From Candidatus Bathyarchaeia archaeon (GTDB lineage: Archaea > Thermoproteota > Bathyarchaeia > Hecatellales > Hecatellaceae), in contig JAVZMI010000009.1 of assembly GCA_038883335.1 (NCBI GenBank), positions 1 through 53,627 on the forward strand: a stretch of 53,627 nucleotides of DNA, given 5' to 3'. Within the stretch, counting starts at the first letter, position 1. Every line of letters starts with the position of its first letter. The notes beneath the pieces are model-generated. The model saw only the letters and a program-made list of their open reading frames with translations. It was not told where the DNA came from and ran no database searches. Positions 8,630 to 23,740 of this stretch are shown in pieces. The translations under genes were made by a program, and so were the position numbers.

Positions 8630-9829
8630 TCAATTGGCGGTGAACTTTGCAAACTCCGAGTCTCGAAGAAGACTTTGAAGACTTTCCACGACAGCTGACC
8701 CATAACTAATAGCTTTCTCGAGAAGTCTCTCATAGACCTCTCTATTCACTGGAGTTGATCCATGTGCTAGGATGGAAAAGTTTCTCTTTGACAGTAAGTC
8801 TCTAAGCTTCTCATCTCTCAGAAACATTTCTCCTATTTCATCACCTTTTGCTGCTAGCAGCTCATAATCTCTCTCAAGTCCCAGCTTAATCTTTTCACCC
8901 TGTGCAGGTATCTTCCACCTCTCCTTAAGGGTTGGAGGTATCTTCTCCAAGTCGATGTCACTTGAATTTATTCCATAATTTTTCCTTAAACGGTATTGCG
9001 CCACCAACTCCACAACGCGGTATAAACGCCCTACTGCGTCGTCATATTTCTTTTCGATGTCGCCCCGCCGCTTTGCGTTATTTATCAAGTCAGCAATTAG
9101 GTATGGTTCCTTCTCGTCGCTGTGCAGTAGTCTGCCTAGGAAGCTTTTATTGCCATCAAATTCTCTACCTTCCAAAGCCTCAAGATGCTTGAATGCTTCG
9201 GCATGTTTAAATTTGTCCCAAGCTGAATAGGCTGAGGCTGCATTTTTTATTGGGGCTATTCGGCTATGGACTTCTTTGTCAGCTACAATCCTCTCAACCT
9301 CCTCGATGATGGCTGATGCTGTGTCAAATCGGCATTCATTAAAAAACCTTTTAGCTTCCATGATCTTTTTATCGCAGATCACGAAGTATGGTCTAACACT
9401 TTGAAGCTCCTCCGCGCCCTTAATGACAACGCCATCAGTTCTTTTCCCGCTAACATAGCTTAAAGTGTCCACCTCAAACAGAGATCCTAAAATTACAAGC
9501 GCCCCTGTCATAGCCTTAGTCCCAGAAGTGTAGTCAACAACCACCGAGGGATATCTGCTTCTTATTTCCACGAATTTCCTTCTCAGATCCTCATAGATCT
9601 TACGAATATTGTCAGGATCCTCCACATCTATTATCTCGTAATCCGGTAATGCTACTCTCTGAAGGATTCTGGGTAAGGTCTTTTCAACACTATCCTTACT
9701 AGCAACGAAGAACACTTTGTCAGGGTGATTGTTTTTTATGCTGAAAGCTATAGCGCCCGCTAAGCTGTTTATAGCCTCATCGCCTGGTCTGGTTCCAGTT
9801 CCCACGGAGATCACTAAAGCTTTCCCCAT
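8630..9829 (-). CDS. CARF-HEPN protein, CRISPR-associated (TIGR02710/Csm6-like)
   Basis: 399 residues. The N-terminal CARF Rossmann-like domain starts VISVGTGTRPG (6-16) and carries the ligand-site motif DYTSGTKAMTGA (D99 to A110). The C-terminal helical half ends in a HEPN-type ribonuclease motif, R349-N-F-S-I-L-A-H356 (R-x6-H). By family knowledge such proteins are RNases switched on by cyclic oligoadenylate made by type III CRISPR complexes. It is the second gene of an operon, 6 bp after the wHTH-CARF gene. No cas gene or CRISPR array lies in the window, so activation by a distant type III locus, or a CRISPR-independent role, is inference. Confidence 0.82.
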   Translation of the reverse strand: MGKALVISVGTGTRPGDEAINSLAGAIAFSIKNNHPDKVFFVASKDSVEKTLPRILQRVALPDYEIIDVEDPDNIRKIYEDLRRKFVEIRSRYPSVVVDYTSGTKAMTGALVILGSLFEVDTLSYVSGKRTDGVVIKGAEELQSVRPYFVICDKKIMEAKRFFNECRFDTASAIIEEVERIVADKEVHSRIAPIKNAASAYSAWDKFKHAEAFKHLEALEGREFDGNKSFLGRLLHSDEKEPYLIADLINNAKRRGDIEKKYDDAVGRLYRVVELVAQYRLRKNYGINSSDIDLEKIPPTLKERWKIPAQGEKIKLGLERDYELLAAKGDEIGEMFLRDEKLRDLLSKRNFSILAHGSTPVNREVYERLLEKAISYGSAVVESLQSLLRDSEFAKFTAN

Positions 9830-9835
9830 CTGGAA

Positions 9836-10555
9836 TCATTCCTCACCCTTCGGTATTCCGAGCCTCCTCTTTATAGTTTCCTTAGAGACCAGCCACTTTA
9901 AGGTTCTAGTTGGCTCGTATACGTAGATGAGAGGCGTATAAAACATCTGAGCCAGCTCATAATAGGCAAGCGTCGCAGGTTTGGTAGCTGATGTGCAGTC
10001 AAGGATGGCTACATACTCTTTCAGAGAACTCTCCAGCCACGAAATCACATTCCTCTTCACAGCATCAATATCGAGTATCTGATCTTCATAGCAGAGTATC
10101 CATTGGTACTGAAGCTTGAGGTCCTTCCAGTCACTCAACGCCTCATGGGAGGTAGTTACGTAGACCAGTTTAGGGGTTACCCCTTCTTTCTCGAGGAGTT
10201 TTAGAGCCACCTCCGGTTCAGGGTCACAGATATCGTCCTTCCTTCCCAGAAGCCCATAATAAGCGAATGGAACCTCACTCTCACGGCCGAAGAGGTAGCA
10301 GAGGGGTGTCTTATATTTTAGGCGATATGTTCCCTTAACTTCACGATCCACTATGTTAAGGGATTGTAATACGTCAAGGTGATGTGTTAAAGTAGACCCC
10401 TTAACACCGGAGGCTCTCTCGATATCCTTAAAGTTAGCGACCCCGCCTTTACTGGCGATGGCTTCAAGGACTCTCCACCTATTCCTACTCTTCACCGCAT
10501 ACTCGTAATCAGGCAATTTAGCTTCCGCCCATATAACGTGAGGCAAGTTCAACAC
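9836..10555 (-). CDS. Winged-helix regulator with C-terminal CARF-like domain
   Basis: 239 residues. Residues 24-85 form a winged helix (ASGVKGSTLTHHLDVLQSL is the recognition region, ArsR-like). Residues about 128-215 read as a CARF-like domain with VYVTTSHEA and DCTSATKPATLAYYELA (D186, K192), equivalent to the D-x-T-x-x-T-K motif of its neighbour. The order is opposite to Csa3, where CARF precedes the wHTH. It probably senses a cyclic nucleotide and controls its own operon. A TATA-like GATATACAAA lies just upstream on the reverse strand (about 10566-10575). Confidence 0.75.
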   Translation of the reverse strand: MLNLPHVIWAEAKLPDYEYAVKSRNRWRVLEAIASKGGVANFKDIERASGVKGSTLTHHLDVLQSLNIVDREVKGTYRLKYKTPLCYLFGRESEVPFAYYGLLGRKDDICDPEPEVALKLLEKEGVTPKLVYVTTSHEALSDWKDLKLQYQWILCYEDQILDIDAVKRNVISWLESSLKEYVAILDCTSATKPATLAYYELAQMFYTPLIYVYEPTRTLKWLVSKETIKRRLGIPKGEE

Positions 10556-11107: not shown

Positions 11108-11407
11108 TCACCATAGTTCTACAAGTGTACAGAGTATCCTGTAGAGGTAAACTTTCCATTGTGGGCTGTTTGTCTCGATGAGGTAGTGAACGTGTTCAGG
11201 TAGCTTGTCGTAGCGGTCTCTAACTCTGAGCGAGTGAAGTGTGGCGTGGATGCTTTCATGAGTCAAATTTCTGAGTAGGTCTTTATGGTCGGATAGAATT
11301 ATGGTTCTGCAATGCCCGCAATAGCCAGCCTTAGTCCAGTGGGGGTGTATTCTCCAATGGCGGCATTTTCCAATTGAAATGTTGAGAGGCTTATCTGCGG
11401 TCCTCAC
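11108..11407 (-). CDS. Small HExxHxxxH zinc-metallopeptidase-like protein
   Basis: 99 residues from a GTG at 11407 with GAGGG 6 nt upstream. Residues about 53-62 read THESIHATLH, an HExxH zinc-protease motif extended by a third histidine (HExxHxxxH). A CGHC pair and other His/Cys residues (KCRHWRIHPHW) suggest a second metal site. There is no signal peptide, so it would act in the cytoplasm. I do not recognise a named family. It flanks the surface-filament island but a link is not shown. Confidence 0.6.
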   Translation of the reverse strand: MRTADKPLNISIGKCRHWRIHPHWTKAGYCGHCRTIILSDHKDLLRNLTHESIHATLHSLRVRDRYDKLPEHVHYLIETNSPQWKVYLYRILCTLVELW

Positions 11408-11606: not shown

Positions 11607-11861
11607 TTACTCGTCGTCTTGGTTTGTTGGGACGTGTTTTTTGATTCTTTGGAAGTTCTTTATGAAGTTGAGGCCCTTCTTCGTTGTTACCCATCGGTCG
11701 CCATTCCTCTCTATCAGGTTCTGGTCCTCTAAAATTTGTAAGTATTGGTTAGCTCTTGTGAAAGTTAAGTTCCCCTCGTAGACTATCTCGGTCTTTTTCG
11801 CCCCATCTTTCGCTATCATTAAGATGTCGTAAAAGACACCGAGCTTCGATCTTCTCAACAT
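11607..11861 (-). CDS. HTH_45-type winged-helix regulator (paralogue of 17661 gene)
   Basis: 84 residues, a single archaeal winged helix. DGAKKTEIVYEGNLTF is the helix-turn-helix start and RNGDRWVTTKKG the wing. The gene at 17661-17954 shares these blocks almost word for word. It is transcribed away from the filament gene at 12037, with two GTTCGGTC motifs between them. A leftward TATA (GTTATACATTT on the reverse strand, about 11886-11896) suggests a nearly leaderless mRNA. Likely a local regulator of the island (inference). Confidence 0.8.
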   Translation of the reverse strand: MLRRSKLGVFYDILMIAKDGAKKTEIVYEGNLTFTRANQYLQILEDQNLIERNGDRWVTTKKGLNFIKNFQRIKKHVPTNQDDE

Positions 11862-11910
11862 TGGTCATCCAAGGTTTTATTCGCAAATGTATAACGGTTT
11901 GGAACCAATT

Positions 11911-11980
11911 GTTCGGTCTTATATGGTTTCGTCGGCTTGGGTAGGATTTCAAAGTTTGTGCGTATACTTAATGTTCGGTC
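11911..11980. promoter_or_regulatory. Two GTTCGGTC motifs, candidate operator
   Basis: GTTCGGTC occurs at 11911-11918 and 11973-11980, each followed by a TAT-containing stretch (TTATATGG, TATTGG). A third copy lies at 18041-18048 upstream of the paralogous regulator. They sit in the divergent intergenic region between the regulator at 11861 and the filament gene at 12037. Confidence 0.45.
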
Positions 11981-12036
11981 TATTGGTTCTAAATCCTCTT
12001 AAAAGACTTCGGCACAAACCCTCATAGAGTACCACT

Positions 12037-13482
12037 TTGACTAATATAAACCGTCCGAAGTCGCTATTTTCGCTATTTCTGCTTATTATAGGTATTCTTA
12101 TGTTCTCAACGGTGAGCGTAGCACACTGGAGCGATAGGGTCGAGATCCGTGACATAGTCGAGATGGGAAGCCTCACAACTGGGTTTACGGATATTCTGGG
12201 TTGTGGAGATAATGAAGACCTAAACATGCCCCCAAAAGATGTGGGGAGTGTGGAATGTAAACTGACAGTTCCTGAGACTGACACGCACACTGGTAAGACT
12301 GTCTATAAGAAACTTGATCTAGTTATCGGCAATGTCTACCCGTCTTATGAGGCGTGGTGCGAGCTAACGGTCGATAATGCTGGGACAATACCGGTGGTAA
12401 CGAAGAAGATTACCTTCACCGAGCTTACAGGAGCTCTTACATATGACGCTGTAAAACGGTGTTTTTTGGATGCTAGTGGCAACGAGATATTAGATGTGGT
12501 TGTTGACCCTGACCCTGTAGGTCAGCAAATTGACCCTTGCGACTCTTTCAAGACTAGAATAAGTATACACGCAAAGCAAGGCGCGGAGCAATGCCACACT
12601 TATGCGTTCGAGGTTGAGGTGGTTCCTGTACAGTGGAACAAGTACTCAGAAGTTGACCCTGACCCCCAGCCGAACCCGAGATCTGACCCAAATCCGGGGC
12701 CATCTGATAAGGCGCCCCACATAGAAGAGAATACATTCAGTATGGAGACTTATGCTGGAGGGTTGAGATGTCTGAGGTCGGAGGCTAAGATGCCCTACAC
12801 GTTTTATGGTGAAACAGTCAAGTTTAAGGTTAATATTACAGATGAGGATGGCATCTCCGACATAGACTTTGATGGGGCTGCCAAAGTAATCTTATCGTCT
12901 GATGAGGTAATAAGCCTAGACGATTTTGCTTTAGCTCTCAACCTATCCGAGATCGTTGACGCGACCTGCGGCAATTTTGAAGGTGAATGGAGTGTACCAG
13001 CAGATTATGGGTTGTTTAACATATTCATAGTCGCGTTCGACAGCGACCTGACACCTGCAGATAACTGTGGCGTTAAGGTAGGGGGGATATTCTTGAATCC
13101 ACGTGTTATGGAGAGTGTAAGCTCTCCGTCTCTAAGCTTCGGGTCTGTTGTTGCGGGTAATGAAAATGTGTCTGCTGCCCAAAACCCCTTTATCGTTACG
13201 AACATGGATCCCGATAATGTTGGGATGAAGATAGACATCTTCATTTATGGTACTGACCTTAGTCACGAGTTTCTTGATGCAAAGATACCGGTATCAAATA
13301 TAAGGGTTGAGGGTGGTTCTGGTGGTGTCATCTACCTATCTGCGGTGCCTCAGAAGATTGACACTTTGAGTAGTGGTGCCTCTGGGTCATACTGCTTTTA
13401 CCTGGATGCTCCTCCGTCGATGCCCGCAGGGGACTATAACGGAAAGGTGACTATTCAGCCTGTAGAGAACAGTTTCGGTTGA
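12037..13482 (+). CDS. Large TasA-like secreted filament protein with C-terminal surface module
   Basis: 481 residues from a TTG start, needed to complete the signal peptide (basic N-terminus, hydrophobic stretch to about residue 29). The mature protein begins HWSD. Residues 30-205 match the island's smaller subunits: DNEDLNMPPKDVG, VYPSYEAWC, QIDPCD, QCHTYAFEVE and VQWNK. A Pro/Asp linker (EVDPDPQPNPRSDPNPGP) then leads to two beta-rich domains shared with the next gene. There is no C-terminal membrane anchor. By analogy to SipW-dependent TasA/camelysin and the AbpA pili of Pyrobaculum it is probably a fibre subunit or cap exported by Sec and processed by the island's signal peptidase. A TATA-like TCTTAAAAG at about 11996-12004 suggests a leaderless mRNA. 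Confidence 0.72.
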   Translation: MTNINRPKSLFSLFLLIIGILMFSTVSVAHWSDRVEIRDIVEMGSLTTGFTDILGCGDNEDLNMPPKDVGSVECKLTVPETDTHTGKTVYKKLDLVIGNVYPSYEAWCELTVDNAGTIPVVTKKITFTELTGALTYDAVKRCFLDASGNEILDVVVDPDPVGQQIDPCDSFKTRISIHAKQGAEQCHTYAFEVEVVPVQWNKYSEVDPDPQPNPRSDPNPGPSDKAPHIEENTFSMETYAGGLRCLRSEAKMPYTFYGETVKFKVNITDEDGISDIDFDGAAKVILSSDEVISLDDFALALNLSEIVDATCGNFEGEWSVPADYGLFNIFIVAFDSDLTPADNCGVKVGGIFLNPRVMESVSSPSLSFGSVVAGNENVSAAQNPFIVTNMDPDNVGMKIDIFIYGTDLSHEFLDAKIPVSNIRVEGGSGGVIYLSAVPQKIDTLSSGASGSYCFYLDAPPSMPAGDYNGKVTIQPVENSFG

Positions 13483-13572
13483 ACTGTCTGAAATTAAATC
13501 TTAATGTAAAAAGTCTTTGTATGCCTTGCAACTGGGAGATCTGCTCATATTTTTGCGTTTTTGCTAGTTCTG

Positions 13573-13685
13573 ACCTAAGGAACGACTCTTAGGTTCACAA
13601 CTGCTTTATTAGAATTTCACTGAAGACGCCATCGGTGAACTACCCGGAGGACTAACTGGGAGCCTCCGTTAAAGGATTGGCGTCT
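13573..13685 (+). promoter_or_regulatory. Structured leader upstream of 13731 gene
   Basis: A first hairpin ACCTAAG (13573-13579)/CTTAGGT (13588-13594) may terminate the upstream transcript. After a TATA-like CTTTATTAG (13604-13612) comes a nested structure: outer stem AGACGCCA (13624-13631)/TGGCGTCT (13678-13685), inner stem CGGAGG (13645-13650)/CCTCCG (13663-13668). It would lie at the start of the mRNA of the next gene and could stabilise it or regulate translation. Confidence 0.5.
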
Positions 13686-13730
13686 GCACGCTCAATCCGA
13701 TGATAGCCCAAAAATTGGAGGAAGAAAAAA

Positions 13731-14756
13731 ATGAGGTTCTTAATGCCCGCGGAGAGAGGTTTGACTGTTGCTGTTGCTATCGCCACGATCTTGGTTCTGA
13801 CTTTATCTGCGGTAGTCATGGTGCCTGTGTTCGCCCAAGAGATTGACACCCAGGTTACCATAGCCGCTGGAGGGGGCACCGCGCCGAAGGTTAAGTGCAA
13901 ATGGGAGCAAGACTTGACTCCAAGCTTGGAAGACGGTGATCCTACACATGCAATCTCAGGAAGCCAGTTCCTCCCACCTGGTGTATACCAAGGCAAGAAG
14001 ACTATTCAATATTTTGCGGTAGTGACCGACGCTGAAGACAACGGTGCTGTGAAGCTGGTTTGGGCTGATGTTTATCACCCCGACGGTAGCTTCAAGTACG
14101 AAGTGCCGATGAGCAGGATAGCTAAACCACCGGTAGAGCCTGTTCTGGCACTATTTGATGCGGCTGCAGCGGCAGGCCTAGTGCACTATGGTCCTGGAGA
14201 GGACTATAATTCCGTTCGCTTCCAGCTTGAGAAATGTGTCGCCGATCTTTGGAGAGGACAAGCCGATCTTGACTATCACCAGCCAGCTGGGGACTACACT
14301 GTGAAAGTTATCGCGATGGATCACAATGATAACTTATCGCCTGAACTCGTTAACACATTCCTCTACGTACCTGTTGCCGTCTGTGAGTTTGACTTCTGCA
14401 CAGTCAACTATGGTTCTGTAAGCGTCTGTAAGGAGAAGTGGGTTGCTGGCGATAAGGACTTTGGAACTGCTAACTTCCCAACTGTTAGAAATGTTGGGAA
14501 CATAGCTTGCAAGATAAAGATCAAACAGAATGACATGGGCTTCGGTAAAGACGTGACCGGCACTTGGAATGTAAAGTTTGATGCTAGGCTGGGCAGTGAC
14601 CCCGCCAACGGAGTATATTATAACCCAGAGCAAGAAGTCATACTGCCCAACCCTCTGCCAAACTGCAACACTGAAGAGCTTGACTTCTCAATCCACGTGA
14701 TAAAGGGCACAGGCGAGCATACAGGTAAGATGTGGCTCAGCTGCGTTCCTGCCTAA
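13731..14756 (+). CDS. Secreted two-domain surface protein sharing module with 12037 protein
   Basis: 341 residues. Strong ribosome binding site GGAGGA 6 nt before the ATG. A signal peptide ends near FAQEI (about residue 36). Domain 1 is Ig-like (TDAEDNGAVKL through NLSPELVNTFLYVPV) and domain 2 begins CEFDFCTVNYGSVSV, both resembling the C-terminal half of the 12037 protein in order and motif. Several cysteine pairs suggest disulphides outside the cell. There is no membrane anchor, so it is released or held by protein contacts. The strong leader, binding site and terminator suggest high expression. Accessory or matrix component by inference. Confidence 0.7.
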   Translation: MRFLMPAERGLTVAVAIATILVLTLSAVVMVPVFAQEIDTQVTIAAGGGTAPKVKCKWEQDLTPSLEDGDPTHAISGSQFLPPGVYQGKKTIQYFAVVTDAEDNGAVKLVWADVYHPDGSFKYEVPMSRIAKPPVEPVLALFDAAAAAGLVHYGPGEDYNSVRFQLEKCVADLWRGQADLDYHQPAGDYTVKVIAMDHNDNLSPELVNTFLYVPVAVCEFDFCTVNYGSVSVCKEKWVAGDKDFGTANFPTVRNVGNIACKIKIKQNDMGFGKDVTGTWNVKFDARLGSDPANGVYYNPEQEVILPNPLPNCNTEELDFSIHVIKGTGEHTGKMWLSCVPA

Positions 14757-14788
14757 GAAGCCAGCATAAGTTAAAAACCACCTGAAAC

Positions 14789-14814
14789 GTATGCCGTTAA
14801 GGCATACATTTTTT
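14789..14814 (+). terminator. Hairpin plus T-run terminator
   Basis: GTATGCC (14789-14795), loop GTTAA, GGCATAC (14801-14807), then ATTTTTT. A 7-bp stem with a six-T tail 33 bp after the stop of the secreted-protein gene. Confidence 0.7.
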
Positions 14815-14961
14815 CTCCATTACTTTAACTCTCAAAAGGGTTTGATCAGGGTTCTGGAAGTTAGATTCTAAGAGAGTAAAAATAGGAACATAAGTCCGAA
14901 CCTTAAGTTCCAAACTATTATTTTAAAAAGTAGTCTTAGAGAAACCCTGAGAGTGTAAATC

Positions 14962-16176
14962 TTGACTGGCGTAGCCAAGAAATTTCTAATCCTCGGGTTG
15001 GTTGTTTTGATGTTCTCTCCTCTTTTCTCCCAGCCTGCTGGAGCCGTTGGCGTCGGTATTGGGCCGAGCGAGTTGAGGATAACGAATGCTTTGCGGGGTA
15101 TGGAGTATGATAGAACAGTGACGGTTTTTAACCCTAGTACAGATGCCGGTGTATTTGCCTTGAGGACTGAGGGTGTCGCTAGCGGGTGGATTACTCTTTA
15201 CAAACTAGACGACTTGACTACGCCGTTGGAGGAGTTGTCTATCGCAGGCGAGCAGCGTTCTACCGTGCTGGTTAAAATCAAGATACCGCAAGATGCTGCT
15301 AATGGCGTCTATAACGCCACCATATATGCTGAGACCTCGTCTGGGATTGGAGAAGAGGTTGAGGTAGGAGTAGGCACAGTTATTCAGGCATCATCGCTCG
15401 TGATCATCGAAGTCTCCGGCGACCAGATTCTAGCCGGCGCAGTAGATTACGTTACTCTGACTGATACTGAGGTAAATTACCCACTCATAATAAATGTTGC
15501 ATTCCGAAATACCGGGAACGTGGTTGCAAATCCGCGGATCGATACAACTATAACTAGGTATGGAACACCCATAGACAGCTTTAGCTATATAGCTGAGGGT
15601 ATAAAGCCAGGTCCGGTCACTATCATTCAGGCAAGATGGAACGCTACAGGCGTAGAGGTTGGAGACTACAATGCTACTGTAGCTGTATCGCTAGATGGTG
15701 ATATGCTGACCAAGGTTAACTTACCTTTCAAGGTGCTTCCATTAGGCACATTAACCAGAGAGGGTATTTTGACTGAGTTAACCTACGGTGGGCAGTCTCT
15801 CTCCGGTCCAATCTTAGGGATCACTGGAGTGTTTGAGAATATAGGTAAGATTGAGACAAGGGCGAAGCTCGTTGGGGAAGTATATCGGGACGGCGCTCTG
15901 GTTGAGACGTTCAACACTGATGAGCTTATTGTGCCTGCTGGTCGTCAGGTTCTACTTAAATCCTACATCGACATAAGGCAGCCTGGCGAATATAGGGTGG
16001 TCGCTCACGCGGTCTACGAAGGTAAGATGACTGATGCGAAAGAGTTGACGTTCACTGTGGGAGAGCCGAGAATTCTGGCGGTACCATATGACCCTACGCT
16101 ACTCGCCGTATTAGCTGTTTCGGCTTCAGCTCTGGCTGCTGGACTTTACGTGGTCGTGAGGAAGAGGAGAGGCTGA
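14962..16176 (+). CDS. Membrane-anchored Ig-like surface protein
   Basis: 404 residues from TTG 14962. Signal peptide (LILGLVVLMFSPLFS, cleavage near PAGA), then an extracellular region of Ig-like/CARDB-like beta domains (PSELRITNALRGMEY..., NTGNVVANPRI, FENIGKIETRAKLVGEVY). A C-terminal membrane helix (LLAVLAVSASALAAGLYVVV) ends in RKRRG. The layout resembles bacterial DUF916/DUF3324 host-surface proteins of WxL systems, though homology is not certain. It is followed after 10 bp by another anchored protein, so the two probably form one operon and tether the secreted fibre to the cell (inference). Confidence 0.72.
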   Translation: MTGVAKKFLILGLVVLMFSPLFSQPAGAVGVGIGPSELRITNALRGMEYDRTVTVFNPSTDAGVFALRTEGVASGWITLYKLDDLTTPLEELSIAGEQRSTVLVKIKIPQDAANGVYNATIYAETSSGIGEEVEVGVGTVIQASSLVIIEVSGDQILAGAVDYVTLTDTEVNYPLIINVAFRNTGNVVANPRIDTTITRYGTPIDSFSYIAEGIKPGPVTIIQARWNATGVEVGDYNATVAVSLDGDMLTKVNLPFKVLPLGTLTREGILTELTYGGQSLSGPILGITGVFENIGKIETRAKLVGEVYRDGALVETFNTDELIVPAGRQVLLKSYIDIRQPGEYRVVAHAVYEGKMTDAKELTFTVGEPRILAVPYDPTLLAVLAVSASALAAGLYVVVRKRRG

Positions 16177-16186
16177 GAGGCTGGCG

Positions 16187-17635
16187 ATGATGCGGCTAGT
16201 TCACGGGAGTTGCTGTTTGAGGCTTCACTCAAAACTCTGTTTGGTTTTGTCTCTTCTTCTTATTTCTTCGTTTTGCGGTTCGGTGGGCTTTGGTGCCCAG
16301 GCTCAGGAAGAGTACACTGTAACCCTCAATAGTTACCCTACTCCTGTCTCGTTTATTGTTGATGGTTTAACGTATCTCCCGACAAATTTGCCTCTTAACT
16401 TCAAATGGGCTAAAAATTCGGTTCACAGTGTGTCTATCGCTTCAGGTACCGTTTATGGTTCGGCGGGAGTTAGATATGTGTTTGAGGGGTGGAATGACGG
16501 CTACGTGGCGTCATCTAGAAGCTTGAAGGTTACATCCGACTTCACCTATGTAGCTATCTACAAAACTCAGTATTTTCTCACAGTCTTGTCGCCCTACGGT
16601 AACCCTAGGGGGCAGGGCTGGTATGACAAAGATTCTCTGGCTAATTTTGCCGTAGACCCTGTTTACTATGTGGTAGAAGGTAAGGTTCGGTATGTTTTTA
16701 ATAGGTGGAATGTGGGCCTTTCGCCGTGGACTTCGGAGAATTCTATATATATGTCAGGCCCTACGACTGTCATGGCTGACTGGGTCAAGCAGTACTGGTT
16801 AGAGATCAGTTCAGCCGTTAAAGGCATTCCTACTAGCGGTTCTGGGTGGTATGATAGAGGTTTCAAAGCCACCATCTCTACACTCGACGAGTTAGAGGTT
16901 GAGAAGAATAGGCGCAAGTATGTTTTCGATAAATGGGTCAATGTTGGAGAAAATCTCGCCTATATAAGAAGCCCTACGGATCCAGTTACAACTTTGGATA
17001 TTGACAACTTCTATTCCATTAAAGCCGAGTTCGTTGAGAACTGGTATATTGATGTGGCTAGTGCTTTTGGTGATCCTCAGGGAGGCGGTTACTATCCCGC
17101 AAACTCGAGGCAAGTTGTCTCTGTCACTAACCCTTGGAATGTTGTGGAGGGGGAGAGTAGATATGTCTTCACCGGTTGGACGGGGTCTTTAAATTCAACC
17201 GAATCCAGCTTGGAGGTCTTGGTTGATGGGCCTAAAACATTGCAGGCTGAATGGAAGAAACAGTACTATCTTAAGATTAACTCTGCTTACGGTGGAGTTA
17301 CCGGCTCGGGTTGGTATGATAAGGATTCCAACGCGTTCTTCTCCGCCTCGCCTTCTATTAGTGGGGGTTGGGGCATAAAATATATTTTCACTCATTGGTC
17401 TGGGGACTATGCTGGCACTTCGCCTAGTGGCCAGATTTTTATGAGTAGACCGAGAGTTATCACCGCGGAGTGGGCTGTTGACTATACGGGCTTGTACCTT
17501 AATATCGCCGTGATTAGTGGCATCTTCTTAGCTGTTGCCATTCTGGTTAAGAAGTTCGTGTTAAAGAAGGTTTATTTGGCTGAGGGTGAAGTTGGAGAAA
17601 AAGATGATGGTGGTAAGGTGAGGGACGCTGCTTGA
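16187..17635 (+). CDS. Membrane-anchored adhesin with InlB-B-like repeats
   Basis: 482 residues. Signal peptide ends near GAQAQ. The ectodomain holds about five degenerate repeats of 70-80 residues, each with a turn like GSGWYDKDS and a strand-turn KYVF-x-x-W, then an A-E-W or A-D-W end. This is the pattern of InlB B-repeat/Flg_new-type beta domains found in surface adhesins. A C-terminal helix (YLNIAVISGIFLAVAILV) is followed by KKFVLKK and an acidic cytoplasmic tail. It sits 10 bp after the Ig-like anchored protein. Likely adhesion or filament anchoring at the cell surface. Confidence 0.75.
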   Translation: MMRLVHGSCCLRLHSKLCLVLSLLLISSFCGSVGFGAQAQEEYTVTLNSYPTPVSFIVDGLTYLPTNLPLNFKWAKNSVHSVSIASGTVYGSAGVRYVFEGWNDGYVASSRSLKVTSDFTYVAIYKTQYFLTVLSPYGNPRGQGWYDKDSLANFAVDPVYYVVEGKVRYVFNRWNVGLSPWTSENSIYMSGPTTVMADWVKQYWLEISSAVKGIPTSGSGWYDRGFKATISTLDELEVEKNRRKYVFDKWVNVGENLAYIRSPTDPVTTLDIDNFYSIKAEFVENWYIDVASAFGDPQGGGYYPANSRQVVSVTNPWNVVEGESRYVFTGWTGSLNSTESSLEVLVDGPKTLQAEWKKQYYLKINSAYGGVTGSGWYDKDSNAFFSASPSISGGWGIKYIFTHWSGDYAGTSPSGQIFMSRPRVITAEWAVDYTGLYLNIAVISGIFLAVAILVKKFVLKKVYLAEGEVGEKDDGGKVRDAA

Positions 17636-17670
17636 CCTGGTGATGCAGGTATAGCAGGGCTCAGGTCAAG
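17631..17670. terminator. 9-bp inverted repeat between convergent genes, candidate bidirectional terminator
   Basis: CTTGACCTG (17631-17639) and CAGGTCAAG (17662-17670) pair perfectly and include the stop codons of the adhesin gene and of the convergent regulator. A smaller stem ACCTG/CAGGT is nested inside. Confidence 0.45.
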
Positions 17671-17954
17671 TATTTGTTTAGTCTCTCCAAGTCTTCTAGG
17701 AATTGGTAGCCTTTCTCCGTGGTAAACCAACGGTCTCCATCTCTTCTGAGTAAACCTTGCTCCTCTAAATATTGCAGGTATCTTGTAGTCCGTGTAAATG
17801 TAAGGTTCGACTTGTATACTATCTCCGTTTTTTTGGCTCCTCTAGTTGCCACCTTAATAATCGCTTGAATTATATCCACCTGTGACCTCCTTGAGATTAC
17901 TCCTACGAAGTGTTCACGTGACAGAGCTAATCTCCCCTCTCCGCTAGAATCCAT
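17661..17954 (-). CDS. HTH_45-type winged-helix regulator (paralogue of 11607 gene)
   Basis: About 97 residues. Shares RGAKKTEIVYKSNLTFTR, YLQYLEEQ and RDGDRWFTTEKG with the regulator at 11607-11861. The N-terminus is longer. I chose the ATG at 17954, while a TTG at 17975 is also in frame. Each paralogue is divergent from a filament gene and has GTTCGGTC upstream. Convergent with the adhesin gene, 25 bp apart. Probably a local repressor or activator (inference). Confidence 0.8.
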   Translation of the reverse strand: MDSSGEGRLALSREHFVGVISRRSQVDIIQAIIKVATRGAKKTEIVYKSNLTFTRTTRYLQYLEEQGLLRRDGDRWFTTEKGYQFLEDLERLNKYLT

Positions 17955-18000
17955 CAGAAACACGCCTTTAAGCAATTCCTCACGGACTTCTAATTTAGAA

Positions 18001-18478
18001 CTTTAGGTACGGAAGATAATTAAAGCTTTCCGTATCACTGGTTCGGTCATATTGTTTCAGTAATCTACAAATAACCAGCCCGCTTTCGGCTAACAGTTAC
18101 GTTGCCTCACGTAATTTTCTGGCCGTGAGTTGCGGTCCTAATTTTTGTCTCAATGGTTCATTTTAAAATAGCACTCGAGAAGAAGCTGTCGTAGCTTAGG
18201 TCTAAAGGGTTCGTATAATGTGGGCTGTGCCTACTCGAAACTAGATAAACAAGTCGAAATTCATGGATAATCTTGATTTTAAGGATTTATAGGGCAGTCT
18301 GACTTTGTTGATGCTTCTTCTTCGGATTTACGGCTCAGTCTTAGAGTTCGGTTTACCAGTTCTCGTTCTTTATAAATATGCCCACTGGAGGTTGAGTTGG
18401 GGAAGCCGAGAGAGGGGCCTATGAACCGATGACCCCTAGAGGGTCGTAATACCCAAAAAAAGAACAGAGGAGTGATAT
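18001..18478. promoter_or_regulatory. Long regulatory region upstream of filament genes
   Basis: No ORF. It holds GTTCGGTC at 18041-18048, a related GTTCGGTTTA at 18346-18355, and a strong TATA box TTTATAAATAT at 18369-18379. The predicted leader carries a small hairpin GACCC/GGGTC (about 18431-18445) and the ribosome binding site GAGGAG (18467-18472). The length and spacing suggest complex control of the subunit genes. Confidence 0.55.
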
Positions 18479-18481
18479 GTG

Positions 18482-19138
18482 ATGGCGTATAGTAAGGCTT
18501 TGGTTCTGCCGCTGGTTCTTATGATGGCGCTGTCAGTTACTGGGGTTGCAGCCGCACACTGGAGCGACACAGTCAAGATAAACGGCACCGTCTATATGGG
18601 TGACCTGATCGTTGGATGGGATGAAATCATAGACTGCTGGGATAACGAGAACGAAAATTCACCTCCTAAAGATGTAGGGGATGTATCCTGCAGTCTAAGC
18701 GATGAGGAGCGTAGCACACATACAGGGAAGTATGTCTACCATAAGCTAAGTGTTAATCTCACAAACGTCTACCCACAATATGAAGCTTGGTGCAAAGCCA
18801 CCTTGACGAGCGCTGGAACCATACCTGCCCACATAATTAGTGCTACTATAACACCAGGAGCCGGGCTGGTAATAGGTGAGACGTTCTACGACGTTAATGG
18901 CAGGGTTATTGGCTGGGAGCTGGATAATGCGGAAACTGGTGGTCCTGTGCTTAACGTGTATGTAACCAAACAAGAAACAGGCTTATCGCTTGTATGCAAC
19001 CAGATCGATCCATGCGATGATGAAGCAGTAGACGTGTACATTGACGTAAAGCAGGATGGAACTCAGGAGTGCCACACCTACACATTCGACATAGAGTTTG
19101 AGGCCATCCAGTGGAACAAGGTAGGCGAGGTTGCTTAA
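18482..19138 (+). CDS. TasA-like filament subunit 1
   Basis: 218 residues. Signal peptide to about residue 25 (GVAAA), mature start HWSDT, then KINGTVYMGDLIVGW, matching the SipW-dependent pattern (aromatic/SD, then N-x-T...G-x-L) of TasA, camelysin and AbpA. The mature domain has DNENENSPPKDVG, VYPQYEAWC, QIDPCD, ECHTYTF and a C-terminal IQWNK. Four or more cysteines suggest disulphides. A GTG at 18479 directly precedes the chosen ATG and both fit GAGGAG. It is 17 bp upstream of the second subunit, in one operon. Probable major structural fibre protein. Confidence 0.78.
   Translation: MAYSKALVLPLVLMMALSVTGVAAAHWSDTVKINGTVYMGDLIVGWDEIIDCWDNENENSPPKDVGDVSCSLSDEERSTHTGKYVYHKLSVNLTNVYPQYEAWCKATLTSAGTIPAHIISATITPGAGLVIGETFYDVNGRVIGWELDNAETGGPVLNVYVTKQETGLSLVCNQIDPCDDEAVDVYIDVKQDGTQECHTYTFDIEFEAIQWNKVGEVA
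18492..18570 (+). repeat. 79-bp perfect direct repeat, copy 1
   Basis: Identical base for base to 19172-19250 (offset 680). Covers the signal peptide and the first mature residues HWSD of subunit 1. Confidence 0.97.
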
Positions 19139-19155
19139 TGGGAGGGCTATAAAAG

Positions 19156-19821
19156 ATGAATACGCTGCACGGTAAGGCTTTGGTTCTGCCGCTGGTTCTT
19201 ATGATGGCGCTGTCAGTTACTGGGGTTGCAGCCGCACACTGGAGCGACACGTTCAGTGTGAGTGGCACAGTAGCGATGGGCACCTGCACTATAGCGTTTC
19301 ATCCAAAAGAAATTCTAAGCTACGTGGATAATGAACAGCAAAACGTGCCTCCTAAAGACATAGGCTGGGCAGAAATATATTATCAGCCGGAAAGCTACAT
19401 AGTGGATCCTCACTCCAATAAGGACGGCTACAAGAAGCTAGAGTTCGTGATCCACAACGCCTACCCACAATACGAGGTCCACTTCACCACGGTCAGGATA
19501 GCTAATATCGGGACTATACCAGTCCACTTCATAGGGCTTGACATACGGGACCCCACCGGCGTGCTCAACTGGCAATGGACTACTCCACCTCCAGCACATG
19601 AAACCACAGGCTTCTTCTGGAAGGATTTCAACGGCAACGGTGCATATGATCCAGGCGAGGAGATAATGAACATAACCATAGTAAACTTCATATGCACCCA
19701 ACTTGAACCATGCGACTCCACCAAGGGTGAGGTTGACATAGACTTCAAACAACCCGCTGAAGAATGCCACACCTACCAGTTCGAAATAGAGATAACCGCA
19801 ATCCAGTGGAATAAGGCCTAA
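19156..19821 (+). CDS. TasA-like filament subunit 2
   Basis: 221 residues. The signal peptide and HWSDT are encoded by DNA identical to that in subunit 1, but the mature domain differs strongly. It keeps DNEQQNVPPKDIG, AYPQYEV, QLEPCD, ECHTYQFEIE and IQWNK, and lacks the Cys after YEV. GGGAGGG upstream of the ATG serves as ribosome binding site. It follows subunit 1 by 17 bp and precedes a T-run. Probably co-assembles with subunit 1 as major and minor fibre proteins (inference). Confidence 0.78.
   Translation: MNTLHGKALVLPLVLMMALSVTGVAAAHWSDTFSVSGTVAMGTCTIAFHPKEILSYVDNEQQNVPPKDIGWAEIYYQPESYIVDPHSNKDGYKKLEFVIHNAYPQYEVHFTTVRIANIGTIPVHFIGLDIRDPTGVLNWQWTTPPPAHETTGFFWKDFNGNGAYDPGEEIMNITIVNFICTQLEPCDSTKGEVDIDFKQPAEECHTYQFEIEITAIQWNKA
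19172..19250 (+). repeat. 79-bp perfect direct repeat, copy 2
   Basis: Second copy, coding for the signal peptide of subunit 2. Flanking bases on both sides differ from copy 1. Confidence 0.97.
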
Positions 19822-19852
19822 CAAACAAAAACAACCCTAAACCTCCCCCCAC

Positions 19853-19858
19853 TTTTTT
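19853..19858 (+). terminator. T-run after filament subunits
   Basis: Six T residues after a C-rich stretch, 31 bp past the stop of subunit 2. Archaeal RNA polymerase often stops at such runs. Confidence 0.35.
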
Positions 19859-19899
19859 AGTCTCAAAACCAAGCCGTAAGTATACGGCTAAAGGTGGTA

Positions 19900-20502
19900 A
19901 TGACGACATACAAAGTTACAGTAATGTTTATTTGCATACTAATAGTTACAGCTATAACTAGCTTCACCGGTGGCCACTGGAACGACACCGACAGCGTAAG
20001 CGGAACAGTAAAAATAGGCCACAGGGCCACCATAATAGACTCGTGGAAAGTTATCACACCAGTAGGGTATCCCCCTTACGATGAGACAACCCAACTTACA
20101 CCCGACAGGCGTACCCTTCAAATCACAGCCACTGAAATCTTCAATGTAACTGAAACTGAACTCTGGTATATATGGGTCGGGTTGCTTGTCAAAAACGACG
20201 GAACCCTGCCGGTAAATATAATTCGACCCTTAATCAAGTTCATACCAGGCGGTAACGATTTCACTGTCGAAGAAACACGTTTTTATGGCCCATACGACAA
20301 AGCTGGCTTCAAAGTTGTATGGGGCAAAGTGAAAGTAAACGACCTAAATAAACCCCCATTCACCACTGACTGGAAGAATCCCCCAATCGCAGCCGACCCT
20401 ACGCAACACGTAGTCATATGGATAAAGATCTCCTACAAGGGAACAGAACCACTCGATACTGCCCAAATAAACATAACAATAAGAGATGAACTAGCCATCT
20501 GA
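19900..20502 (+). CDS. Divergent TasA-like secreted protein (subunit 3)
   Basis: 200 residues. ATG 19900 with GGTGG just upstream, chosen over GTG 19894. Signal peptide (FICILIVTAITSFTGG), mature start HWNDT followed by SVSGTVKIGHRATI, the same frame as the other subunits. The mature part is beta-rich with NDGTLPVNII but lacks the cysteine/CHTY/QWNK signature, so it is a distant paralogue, perhaps an initiator, cap or TapA-like accessory. A 19-bp gap to the next gene suggests an operon with the membrane protein. Confidence 0.68.
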   Translation: MTTYKVTVMFICILIVTAITSFTGGHWNDTDSVSGTVKIGHRATIIDSWKVITPVGYPPYDETTQLTPDRRTLQITATEIFNVTETELWYIWVGLLVKNDGTLPVNIIRPLIKFIPGGNDFTVEETRFYGPYDKAGFKVVWGKVKVNDLNKPPFTTDWKNPPIAADPTQHVVIWIKISYKGTEPLDTAQINITIRDELAI

Positions 20503-20521
20503 CAAACCCGAGGTGGAAAGC

Positions 20522-21181
20522 ATGCCTCTTAAAACTGGCTTCCGAAGTTGGCTCCACCGACATCTGAAGCCTCTCGGGAAACTGGTGGGCGGGGGGCGCA
20601 ACCTCAAATACGCCAAGATCGCGGTCACAGTTGCCTATACTATCTTTTTAATCTCCTTCAGCCCTACATTTATGAACGTTCCAGCTCTTCACCCCATCTT
20701 CTACTGGTGGGAAGTTCACGACCTGTTCGGATCCGGACCCGGACACCACCAACAATTGGGCGGATACCTCTGCTATGTGTTTACCTTCCCAGAGTTAACC
20801 TACCCCATCCTGCCCTACATCACCCTAAGCATGGTTACTGCTTTCATCTGGTACTATGCCTGGAGATTCGTGAGGAGAAATAGCAACACTGCTTCACCTC
20901 ACAATAAATGGTTATTGACGGTAGGATCCTTGAATACCCTATACCTATTCACCATTCAAATGTTCATCATGCCACACCTTCTAAGGTGGCCCTTTGCCAC
21001 GACATTCCTATCAATCTTAGCCATACTTTTAACAGATCTGATACTCACCACACGAAAGCCTCAAAGAGAGCTGCCCCCACCGCCTAGAAGTTTAGGCGTC
21101 TCGACGCATGGTCTACCTTTGGATCCCCAAGGCGCTCAAGAAAACTCTACACCTAATCGGAAAGATAATATTCCCAGCTGA
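20522..21181 (+). CDS. Small multi-pass membrane protein of unknown function
   Basis: 219 residues with four or five hydrophobic segments (IAVTVAYTIFLISFSP; ILPYITLSMVTAFIWYYAW; LLTVGSLNTLYLFTIQMFIM; TTFLSILAILLTDLIL). The C-terminal tail is soluble and Pro-rich. A His-rich loop (GSGPGHHQQLGG) lies between segments 1 and 2. ATG 20522 has GAGGTGG upstream, preferred to GTG 20513. I do not recognise the family. Its place between a fibre subunit and the signal peptidase suggests an export or assembly partner (inference). Confidence 0.65.
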   Translation: MPLKTGFRSWLHRHLKPLGKLVGGGRNLKYAKIAVTVAYTIFLISFSPTFMNVPALHPIFYWWEVHDLFGSGPGHHQQLGGYLCYVFTFPELTYPILPYITLSMVTAFIWYYAWRFVRRNSNTASPHNKWLLTVGSLNTLYLFTIQMFIMPHLLRWPFATTFLSILAILLTDLILTTRKPQRELPPPPRSLGVSTHGLPLDPQGAQENSTPNRKDNIPS

Positions 21182-21190
21182 GAACTGAGG

Positions 21191-21646
21191 ATGGGACGGC
21201 TGAAACATCGGACAGACCATCAAGAGCTCTCCACCGTCCAACAAAGGTTAATGAGATCACATAAAGTCATATGCCCTAGCTGCGGATATGAGTTCAAAAT
21301 TCAACATTACACCTTAGCTCAAAGATCTCAGAACAATCATCGGCGGCTGAGCGAGCAATGCACCATAATAATGCAATACCTCAGCCGGCATAAGGAAGGA
21401 CTCCAGAAGCGACACCTGAAAAGAATTCTAAACGACCGAGGGATATCGATCTCCAGTCGCGCCCTATCCAGTCACCTCAATGAGCTGCTGGCACTACGCC
21501 TCATAGCCGTGAAAGCCACCATAGAAGCAAACGGGTCTAAAATGCCTCGGTGGGCAATCCTCTGGCTTATTACCCCTAAAGGCTGTAGGGTACTCCACAG
21601 ACGTGAACAGGCATGTGCCCTCTCCCAAGCTAGTCAGTATCGTTGA
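21191..21646 (+). CDS. Zinc-ribbon plus winged-helix DNA-binding protein
   Basis: 151 residues. One CPSCGYEF half-ribbon near residue 28 is followed by a helix-rich region with a winged helix (GLQKRHLKRILNDRGISIS, SSHLNELLALRLI, ITPKGCRVL). Only one Cys pair is present in the ribbon region, so metal binding may need a partner or dimer. The ATG at 21191 lies 9 bp after the membrane protein stop, in the same operon. Candidate regulator of the filament island. Confidence 0.65.
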   Translation: MGRLKHRTDHQELSTVQQRLMRSHKVICPSCGYEFKIQHYTLAQRSQNNHRRLSEQCTIIMQYLSRHKEGLQKRHLKRILNDRGISISSRALSSHLNELLALRLIAVKATIEANGSKMPRWAILWLITPKGCRVLHRREQACALSQASQYR

Positions 21647-21678
21647 CCTGCAAGACCAGTGTAGATGGAATATCTTCG

Positions 21679-21720
21679 GTACGATCTTCTCGTACGATCT
21701 TATCATTCATACGGTTTATA
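21679..21720 (+). promoter_or_regulatory. Tandem GTACGATCTT repeats next to TATA element
   Basis: GTACGATCTT occurs at 21679-21688 and again at 21692-21701 (13-bp period). A TATA-like GGTTTATA follows at about 21713-21720, 30 bp before the ATG of the signal peptidase gene. The layout fits an upstream regulator site for an independent promoter. Confidence 0.45.
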
Positions 21721-21749
21721 GGTTCTCTCTAAGAGCAGAAAGAGTAGTT

Positions 21750-22940
21750 ATGAATAGAAACCCAACACCTCACCTCTCCGCTTGGACTGGATGGCTTCCC
21801 ATCTTAGCCTTGACACTGACCGTCTACATTCTAGCAACTCAAATCCTACCACCCATAAGCGGGACGCTATCTTACTACACAAACCCACTCTTGTGGGGGA
21901 TCTTAATCTTTATAACATTAACAAGATTCAAAAAGCAGAAAAAATATAGGTGGCACCTCGATAAGCCGCTCGTTGTAATGGCTGTAACAGTAGCCACGTT
22001 TCAAATATCAGCCTCAGTGATTGTAGGGCTGTTCACCAGCTTCGGCAGGAGCCCATTTTCATCCGAACCTCAGATTATAACAACCAACCTAGCCTACTTC
22101 ATATCTATGCTATTCGGGCTCGAACTACCAAGAGCCTACCTAATCAAATCCTGGGAACGTAAGGCAACTCTGGCAATAGGCGTTACAGCCCTGCTCTTCG
22201 CTCAACTGTCAGCATCATTCTTGCCTGTAATAACTCTGAGTAGCCCTTTCGAGTTAACAAAGTTTCTAAGTGAGAAATATCTGCCTAGCGTAGCAGAAAA
22301 TCTTCTCGCATCCTACCTGGCATTATTGGGTGGACCAATAGCGTCGATAAGCTATATGGGAACAATTCTAACTTTCCAATGGCTCTCTCCGATACTACCA
22401 GACCCCTCATGGTCCATCAAAGCTCTACTCGGCGTAATAGCACCCACAATAGGTTTCCTGATAATTCACAACTTTCACACCACTCCAACTCAAACCACAA
22501 AACCCGAAAAACTCCACACGCCACACTGGACAGCCATATCCATCATCTTCGTCTTGGCTGTCTGGGCTTCAACAGGTCAGTTGGGCTTCTATCCAACAGC
22601 GATTATCAGCGGGAGCATGCAGCCAACAATAGATGTGGGAGACTTGGTCATCGTCACGAAGATATCTCCGGAAAAAATCAAACCAGGAGACATAATTCAG
22701 TTTAAAGGCGAGAGAGAGAACATTGTCCACAGGGTTGTGGCTGTCCAGCAGGGCGCCACGAAAACGTTTATAACAAAAGGGGACAACAATAACAGCCCAG
22801 ACCGTGAACCTGTAAAACCAGATCAAATCCTAGGTAAAGTAACTTATATCGTGCCAAAGATCGGATGGGCGTCGATCATTGTAAAGACAGCCATAGAGAA
22901 AATTCGAGTGCTCCTAGAAAACCTTGCTTTTGCACCCTGA
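21750..22940 (+). CDS. SipW-like signal peptidase I (S26B) with large multi-TM N-terminus
   Basis: 396 residues from ATG 21750. The upstream 49 codons of the frame are polar and overlap the previous gene. Residues 1-270 contain about seven or eight membrane segments of unknown role. The C-terminal catalytic domain has SGSMQPT (Ser289), GDLVIV, ENIVHRVVA (His327) and TKGDNN, the Ser/His form used by ER, archaeal and SipW peptidases, not the Ser/Lys form. Ordinary archaeal signal peptidases are under 200 residues, so the N-terminal membrane part is unusual. Placed with four HWSD-type preproteins it is the probable dedicated processing enzyme, as SipW is for TasA. Confidence 0.8.
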   Translation: MNRNPTPHLSAWTGWLPILALTLTVYILATQILPPISGTLSYYTNPLLWGILIFITLTRFKKQKKYRWHLDKPLVVMAVTVATFQISASVIVGLFTSFGRSPFSSEPQIITTNLAYFISMLFGLELPRAYLIKSWERKATLAIGVTALLFAQLSASFLPVITLSSPFELTKFLSEKYLPSVAENLLASYLALLGGPIASISYMGTILTFQWLSPILPDPSWSIKALLGVIAPTIGFLIIHNFHTTPTQTTKPEKLHTPHWTAISIIFVLAVWASTGQLGFYPTAIISGSMQPTIDVGDLVIVTKISPEKIKPGDIIQFKGERENIVHRVVAVQQGATKTFITKGDNNNSPDREPVKPDQILGKVTYIVPKIGWASIIVKTAIEKIRVLLENLAFAP

Positions 22941-23407
22941 GACAGCCACGAATTAGGCGAGAAAAGGGAGAAGGTGAGCCAATAATGTGTAGCTGTAGCT
23001 TTACCAACGTTTCCGCTAGTCATGAAAGGTTTGATAGAGATGTGGCCTATATGGAGCATTACAACCCAGTTGGCAGTTCATGTCTCCTCATAGTCACCGT
23101 AGCGAGTTAGGTAGTGGATCGTACGGTAGATGGGTAGCTGTTGAGCGTATGGTTGTGAGTTTTTGGAAATGCTCTCATAAACATAAGCAGAGCTAAATAA
23201 GAGCACGGGCGTAAGTGAAAGATTCGATACACCCCATTAGTAATCTATACCGGTAAAGTCCATTGTTTACCGTGATTTTCCTCTCTTCCTAAGAATGGCC
23301 AAATGCCCTCCCAATATATTTTAATATACCGCGTTTCACATAATTGGATAAGAAACGATTTAAACGGGCACCCGTTTAATATATTTTTGTAGGACTATAA
23401 CTCCTAG
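22941..23407. other. Intergenic stretch with operator-like palindrome
   Basis: No convincing ORF. The last 50 bp hold the palindrome and TATA element listed separately. I see nothing recognisable in 22941-23350. Confidence 0.4.
23360..23388 (+). promoter_or_regulatory. 20-bp palindrome overlapping a TATA box
   Basis: TTAAACGGG (23360-23368), CA, CCCGTTTAA (23371-23379), running into AATATATTTTT (23378-23388). Predicted transcript start falls close to GTG 23408. A dimeric regulator bound here would cover the TBP/TFB site, so a repressor is likely, perhaps the product of the next gene. Confidence 0.6.
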
Positions 23408-23740
23408 GTGACTAGATATCGTTACACTAGTTTTATATATAATAAAAACTATCCGATATTTGACCGTAATATGCGCTGTAACTCTACATTGAACGACGCA
23501 CAAGGCATAATAGACTCCCTCCTTGAACTATTGCTCGATGGGAAGCTGCATACATTAGCTGAACTATCGAAAGAACTTAAAATTCAACAAGACACCTGCC
23601 AAAAAATCCTAGAGACCCTAGGCAAATATGAACTAGTCGAGTACCAGGCAGATACAAAAGAGGCTAAAATTGACCCCAAACTTAGGCAGCTGCTGAAAAA
23701 CAACGGTGATAGACTAGACAGCCCTGAAAATCAATCTTGA
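23408..23740 (+). CDS. Small helix-turn-helix regulator
   Basis: 110 residues from GTG 23408, or 89 from ATG 23471. The domain begins at about residue 28 (GIIDSLLELLLDGKLHTLAELSKELKIQ is the winged-helix entry) and ends with VEYQADTKEAKIDPKL. The palindrome/TATA at 23360-23388 would start a leaderless mRNA at about 23408. A second TATA-like TTTTATATATAATAAAA (23431-23447) would serve ATG 23471. Both starts are possible. It closes the filament island on its right side. Confidence 0.65.
   Translation: MTRYRYTSFIYNKNYPIFDRNMRCNSTLNDAQGIIDSLLELLLDGKLHTLAELSKELKIQQDTCQKILETLGKYELVEYQADTKEAKIDPKLRQLLKNNGDRLDSPENQS

Follow-up and report, generated by a model that had tools for sequence, protein, structure and literature searches.

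The window analysed here is a stretch of 53,627 nucleotides of archaeal DNA. It belongs to a 1.22-Mb assembly with a completeness of 98.9%, and the contig of the closest named relative is annotated as Candidatus Bathyarchaeota. An island at positions 11607-23740 carries two co-oriented gene blocks, each lying behind a divergent HTH_45 regulator (11607 and 17661; genes are named here by their first coordinate). The first block encodes four proteins: a long HWSD protein, one secreted protein and a pair of surface proteins with C-terminal anchors. The second encodes HWSD1, HWSD2, HWND, a 222-aa membrane protein, a small possible regulator and a multi-TM S26 protein, and it is likely an operon because its intergenic gaps are short (17, 72, 10, 9 and 100 bp). 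All open reading frames on which a preceding sequence-only reading of the region had been based were found in place. The features of the island are:

11607..11861, minus strand: HTH_45 winged-helix regulator (PF14947, E 4e-21), divergent from the first gene block
12037..13482, plus strand: long HWSD subunit, AbpX-like domain at about residues 28-205 and a C-terminal extension of about 265 aa
13731..14756, plus strand: secreted protein of 341 aa, ordinary signal peptide, P2' not aromatic
14962..16176, plus strand: surface protein with C-terminal anchor, Ig-like/WxLIP-like hints below cut-off
16187..17635, plus strand: B-repeat (Flg_new_2) surface protein with C-terminal anchor, Pfam 31.4 bits versus a cut-off of 23.6
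17661..17975, minus strand: HTH_45 regulator (Pfam E 1.3e-20), divergent from the subunit-peptidase operon
18371..18380 (approximate), plus strand: TATA-like box TTTATAAATA, found by eye and unscored, with the first subunit gene about 100 bp downstream
18479..19138, plus strand: HWSD subunit 1, probable start ATG 18482, predicted cleavage between AAA and HWSD
19156..19821, plus strand: HWSD subunit 2, 234 bits with the A3 HMM
19894..20502, plus strand: HWND subunit, divergent member, 109 bits with the A3 HMM
20513..21181, plus strand: membrane protein (222 aa), separated by 10 bp from the preceding HWND gene
21191..21646, plus strand: possible zinc-ribbon/winged-helix regulator (weak), HTH matches below cut-off
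21747..22940, plus strand: predicted dedicated signal peptidase, a fusion of a 7-8-TM domain (N-terminal) and an S26 domain of ER/SipW type (C-terminal; SGSM, HR, GDxN)
23360..23379, no strand: perfect 20-bp palindrome TTAAACGGG-CA-CCCGTTTAA (TTAAACGGGCACCCGTTTAA), just upstream of 23408
23408..23740, plus strand: small winged-helix-like regulator, weak HTH matches

A foreign composition of the island was considered and rejected, as its GC content of 0.42-0.48 resembles that of the left flank. Directly left of the island, a CARF-HEPN Csx1/Csm6-like gene and a winged-helix CARF-like gene lie on the minus strand (8630-10555). A small ORF on the same strand (11108-11407) has an HE-x-x-H-like motif (LTHESIHATLH) and might encode a metalloprotease; the family search with it gave no match.

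In four proteins (18479, 19156, 12037 and 19894), a signal peptide is followed directly by HWSD or HWND, as the sequence-only reading had noticed. These proteins form one family, since a search of the own genome with one of them recovers only the other three. In sequence the paralogues are diverse; the long subunit 12037 (194 bits with the A3 HMM) shows 47% identity to 18479 across the domain, and HWSD1 and HWSD2 are 41% identical overall. At the DNA level, the latter two share a perfectly identical tract of 79 bp (18492-18570 versus 19172-19250) that spans signal peptide and HWSD, which in proteins only 41% identical suggests that the start with signal peptide and donor strand was recently copied or converted between the two genes. 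Long HWSD variants with unrelated extensions also occur in five other cassettes. The extension of 12037 is window-specific, with no homologue among the other cassettes compared, and the protein is a candidate tip or adhesin subunit. Tryptophan occupies the P2' position in 101 of the 108 family subunits, and in the sequences of the remaining secreted proteins of the island it does not. Pfam and NCBIfam scans of the window subunits returned nothing specific, and a scan of viral contigs found no relatives.

The kind of protein to which these subunits belong became apparent from profile searches of the PDB. A profile built from the four window sequences only matched 9sj2, the AbpX chain of Pyrodictium abyssi, with an E-value of 4.4e-6, which changed to 4.3e-15 with 30 rows and to 1.2e-18 with 46 rows. 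In the alignment, QWSETL at the start of the solved chain is paired with HWSDT, and the match continues through the core. Because the alignment starts at residue 1 of solved AbpX, H-W-[SN]-D is the expected new N-terminus of the subunits. In a further AbpX entry, 9rhp, QWSETLSLSATISTG is found at the C-terminus instead, and such a C-terminal strand would fit a donor-strand-complemented construct. In Pyrodictium abyssi, ABPx is reported to be a fibre that forms bundles and is built by donor-strand exchange (PMC11952670). Judged by the profile comparisons, the HWSD proteins are AbpX homologues. The likeness to AbpX (9sj2, 9rhp) covers the subunit family, the mature N-terminus X-W-S-[ED]-T and the adjoining multi-TM S26 gene. 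The window differs in having four paralogues with a long variant, and in its anchored surface proteins and its HTH_45 regulators; its lineage is related to Bathyarchaeota.

The sequence-only reading had proposed a TasA/AbpA-like fibre. The homology to AbpX, a donor-strand fibre subunit, upholds the general idea, but the two named relatives fare less well. No chain named AbpA was among the matches of the PDB searches with the family profile, although AbpA of Pyrobaculum calidifontis is likewise described as a secreted, TasA-related donor-strand fibre (PMC9674648, PMC9715654). The profile match between TasA, whose query sequence was checked against PDB 8aur, and the subunits is marginal, with an hhalign probability of 6% and 1 of 2000 shuffles equalling or exceeding it. 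Curated TasA, camelysin and SipW-cognate models of NCBIfam and Pfam did not match the window subunits and matched a few relatives marginally. The BsaA family of SipW-dependent matrix proteins (TIGR04090) gave weak matches in 5 of 46 archaeal family members (best 5e-5), whereas no window protein matches it. An AF2 model of mature HWSD1 is all-beta (pLDDT 85.9, pTM 0.81), and the first 18 residues of this monomer model are without strand and of low confidence. With this model, Foldseek gave no match at E <= 0.001; the TasA fibre 8aur stood at rank 12 with a probability of 0.84, the highest among the top 50, but with an E-value of 0.03 and a TM-score of 0.35. The resemblance to the bacterial systems (TasA/TapA/SipW of B. 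subtilis, sipW-calY1-calY2 of B. cereus) is in organisation: beta-rich subunits, two paralogues of them in B. cereus, are encoded with a dedicated ER-type peptidase in one operon, and TasA also has an aromatic P2' residue. A TapA-like starter was not identified.

The gene at 21747 encodes the enzyme that the sequence-only reading had recognised as a signal peptidase at the end of a large membrane protein. Its start is most likely ATG 21747 (397 aa) and not GTG 21603, because relatives begin there. The S26 domain scores 105 bits with TIGR02228, the archaeal signal peptidase model (cut-off 51.85, E 3e-30), and is above the cut-off of PF10502; the peptidase family profile matches Sec11A/C at 1e-28. 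S290, H328 and D346 are invariant across 32 fusions. By these matches, the C-terminal domain is an archaeal/ER-type signal peptidase I. At 22900-22940, the window peptidase is without the C-terminal TM and basic tail that relatives have; loss by a frameshift was rejected, as the two frames read hold no remnant. One other S26 enzyme is encoded in the genome, a small one of housekeeping type on a different contig (C4:57394). Aromatic residues at P2' impair LepB of E. coli, while TasA, with Phe in that position, is processed by a dedicated enzyme, SipW (PMC10269814). Together with this precedent, the P2' Trp of the subunits suggests a reason for a dedicated enzyme. The proposed SipW-type processing is supported by the strict genomic pairing and the aromatic P2' of SipW-substrate type, but the peptidase itself, with 68 bits, lies below the cut-off of 190 of the SipW equivalog NF046067. 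SipW is also a small enzyme (the NCBIfam model has 189 positions), whereas the window peptidase has a membrane domain of about 260 residues ahead of the catalytic part.

This N-terminal membrane domain is predicted to comprise about 7-8 helices, and it contains an E-x-x-R that is nearly invariant. A structure prediction from two sequences shows a run of helices at a pLDDT of 35. That the domain belongs to a recognised Pfam family was rejected, as no Pfam family matches it; in particular, PF02517 matches 0 of the 32 fusions. A clue to its origin comes from three split cassettes (G131, G155, G029), in which the fusion is absent and replaced by a short S26 gene, a stand-alone PF02517-like (CPBP/Rce1-like) membrane protein and DUF5305. 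When a 35-sequence profile of the domain was compared with 48 other multi-TM proteins of the loci, one of these stand-alone CPBP-like proteins matched with E 2.3e-5 and a probability of 76%, and the other two more weakly (E 0.035 and 0.048). They are the best long non-fusion matches, ranking behind a fragment of the domain itself, and the E and R of E-x-x-R coincide with the E..R motif of the CPBP protein. Ordinary CPBP proteins of the same genomes do not stand out. The comparison is informative only with the 35-sequence profile: the fused domain against a profile of two near-identical split CPBP proteins came back empty. Unlike CPBP proteins, the fusions are without the EExxxR spacing, and no His column is conserved at 75%. 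Because the split-cassette proteins are the best long matches and their E and R align, a CPBP origin of the domain appears possible to probable. The domain may possibly be a degenerate CPBP (Rce1-like) fold that acts in substrate binding or as an assembly scaffold.

The sequence-only reading was not aware of any description of a dedicated multi-TM signal peptidase with paired anchors in one archaeal locus. That such a peptidase would be peculiar to this locus is not supported: it is the phylum-wide partner of these subunits. Among 398 genomes of the phylum, HWSD proteins (counted at E <= 1e-7) occur in 47, the membrane domain in 41 and both in 40; the single membrane-domain genome without HWSD is a partial match (5e-5). 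In all 40 paired genomes the genes are adjacent, no more than about 1 kb apart (in the window the distance is 1.2 kb). The Fisher p-value of 8e-38 for this co-occurrence is uncorrected for relatedness, and since some of the surveyed loci went into the domain profile and necessarily contain the domain, the information lies in its near-absence outside them. Within 251 genomes of the class, HWSD is present in 12, and a full or contig-truncated fusion in 9, all of them within these 12 (Fisher 2e-14). An S26 gene lies <=1.5 kb from HWSD in 37 of 45 regions, most exceptions being contig ends or split cassettes. The pairing extends to AbpX: the locus G441/L131 encodes AbpX (100% over 149 aa), and 222 bp downstream a 380-aa multi-TM S26 protein. 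Such a pattern far exceeds chance expectation, and the absence of co-occurrence that had been named as refuting the proposal was not found. Our searches of the open literature found no description of a phylum-wide pairing of this peptidase architecture, although part of it may be already published. New is the peptidase with a conserved 7-8-TM domain, possibly CPBP/Rce1-derived judging from the alignments, that is almost exclusive to this pairing. The distribution of the cassette is patchy, as only one of eight sampled genomes of the window's family, the window genome itself, has it.

Around this core, the accessory genes vary. The two HTH_45 regulators 11607 and 17661 are 51% identical and are the only HTH_45 genes of the genome. 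Of 11 genomes tested, 10 have an HTH_45 gene no more than 5 kb from the cassette (p about 1e-12), a linkage that is only indicative because three genomes were picked after the gene was seen. Homologues of 23408 recur at seven bathyarchaeal cassettes (L066, L067, L069, L070, L071, L074 and L075), and 21191 has no counterpart in the other cassettes compared. Of the four small HTH regulators proposed before, two are HTH_45 proteins, while 23408 and 21191 have only weak HTH matches; that regulators belong to the cassette is borne out by the recurrence of HTH_45 and 23408. The palindrome at 23360, of which 0.01 are expected by chance in the window, is a candidate operator.

The secreted protein, the membrane protein and the two anchored surface proteins of the sequence-only reading are all present. 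Each of the anchored proteins (14962 and 16187) has a signal peptide and, at its C-terminal end, a hydrophobic stretch with basic residues behind it. Homologues of 16187 lie directly beside the peptidase in L135 and L136 (E 6e-81 and 7e-73). In the genomes G534, G496 and G490 the homologue is single copy; in the first two it neighbours the peptidase, and in the third it is at the edge of a contig. Going by these neighbourhoods, 16187 is an accessory cassette member. For 14962, no homologue was found in 18 related genomes, and it is window-specific, so the idea of paired anchors as a conserved module was not borne out: 16187 recurs near cassettes and 14962 in none. The secreted protein 13731 is equally window-specific, with no homologue in the 18 related genomes and no family match. 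Its descent as a paralogue of the long subunit's C-terminus was rejected, as BLASTP gives no support. The 222-aa membrane protein has no counterpart in the cassettes compared and no family match. DUF5305 (PF17231) is found in 23 of the 45 cassette regions examined (for example L066, L067, L069, L072-L075, L107 and L108). It is a two-TM beta-rich protein and a candidate anchor or starter of the fibre; no mention of it was found in the open literature searched. Since DUF5305 is absent from the window genome, calling the island 'self-contained' was too strong.

Taken together, the core at 18479-22940 with the regulators 17661 and 23408 and the long subunit 12037 is very probably an AbpX-type bundling-fibre cassette that is TasA-like in its working. 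Fibre formation by the window proteins is an inference. Subunits would be exported by Sec, with signal peptides that end in AxA followed by X-Trp, and the membrane-embedded Ser-His-Asp peptidase of the cassette would cut just before H-W-[SN]-D, a site whose aromatic P2' residue ordinary type I peptidases are expected to handle poorly. The cut would free the N-terminal strand HWSDTVKINGTVYMG, which may insert into the groove of the next subunit by donor-strand exchange and so build a thin fibre. HWSD1 and HWSD2 are likely the bulk subunits, and HWND and the long subunit may serve as starter, tip or adhesive. Fibres might be attached to the cell or matrix with the help of surface proteins such as 16187, and the HTH_45 proteins presumably regulate the two divergent gene blocks.

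Other readings of the locus have to be weighed against this assignment. HWSD proteins could be AbpX relatives that are matured by the peptidase and act as non-polymerising surface or S-layer-associated proteins (adhesins), forming no donor-strand fibre. Such a role would agree with the diversity of the four paralogues, with the long HWSD variant and the window-specific anchored surface proteins nearby, and with the Foldseek search, which yielded nothing at its threshold. However, the matched region spans the first residues through the core of a solved fibre subunit, and the tandem organisation and peptidase type are common to the AbpX locus and its relatives, so we consider this reading unlikely. 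Pyrodictium has both CanA cannulae and AbpX fibres, both of them discussed as donor-strand assemblies in work that PMC11952670 cites, and the assembled object might accordingly be a tube of the cannula type or a mixed appendage in place of an AbpX-like bundling fibre. In the PDB, however, the profile matches chains of AbpX and none that is named CanA, and of the readings considered here we regard this one as the least probable.

The role of the peptidase can be questioned as well. The multi-TM S26 protein might be a general or regulatory protease that is linked to the subunit genes by chance, and a membrane domain without a family would suit this reading. Against this, 40 of the 41 membrane-domain genomes carry adjacent HWSD genes, the catalytic residues are invariant, and the genome has a separate small S26 peptidase. 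We regard this reading as very unlikely. For the fibre cassette favoured here, a further idea is that the peptidase is a two-part fibre maturase, in which a catalytically dead CPBP-derived domain holds the emerging subunit and hands its cut N-terminal strand to the next one. We regard this as speculative and rather doubtful. If it were true, one enzyme would couple signal-peptide cleavage to donor-strand assembly throughout the phylum and would be an archaeal counterpart in function of the chaperone-usher machinery.

A few cultured species are known to make donor-strand fibres of the TasA/ABP kind. Because the cassette is widespread in the phylum, it is a real example of a known fibre kind and not a one-off. 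The genomic signature of X-Trp subunits and a multi-TM S26 peptidase, often with HTH_45 and DUF5305, flags such fibres in about 12% of the sampled phylum genomes, uncultured lineages included. With a specific candidate processing enzyme that has a conserved membrane domain, the maturation and assembly of archaeal fibres become directly testable.
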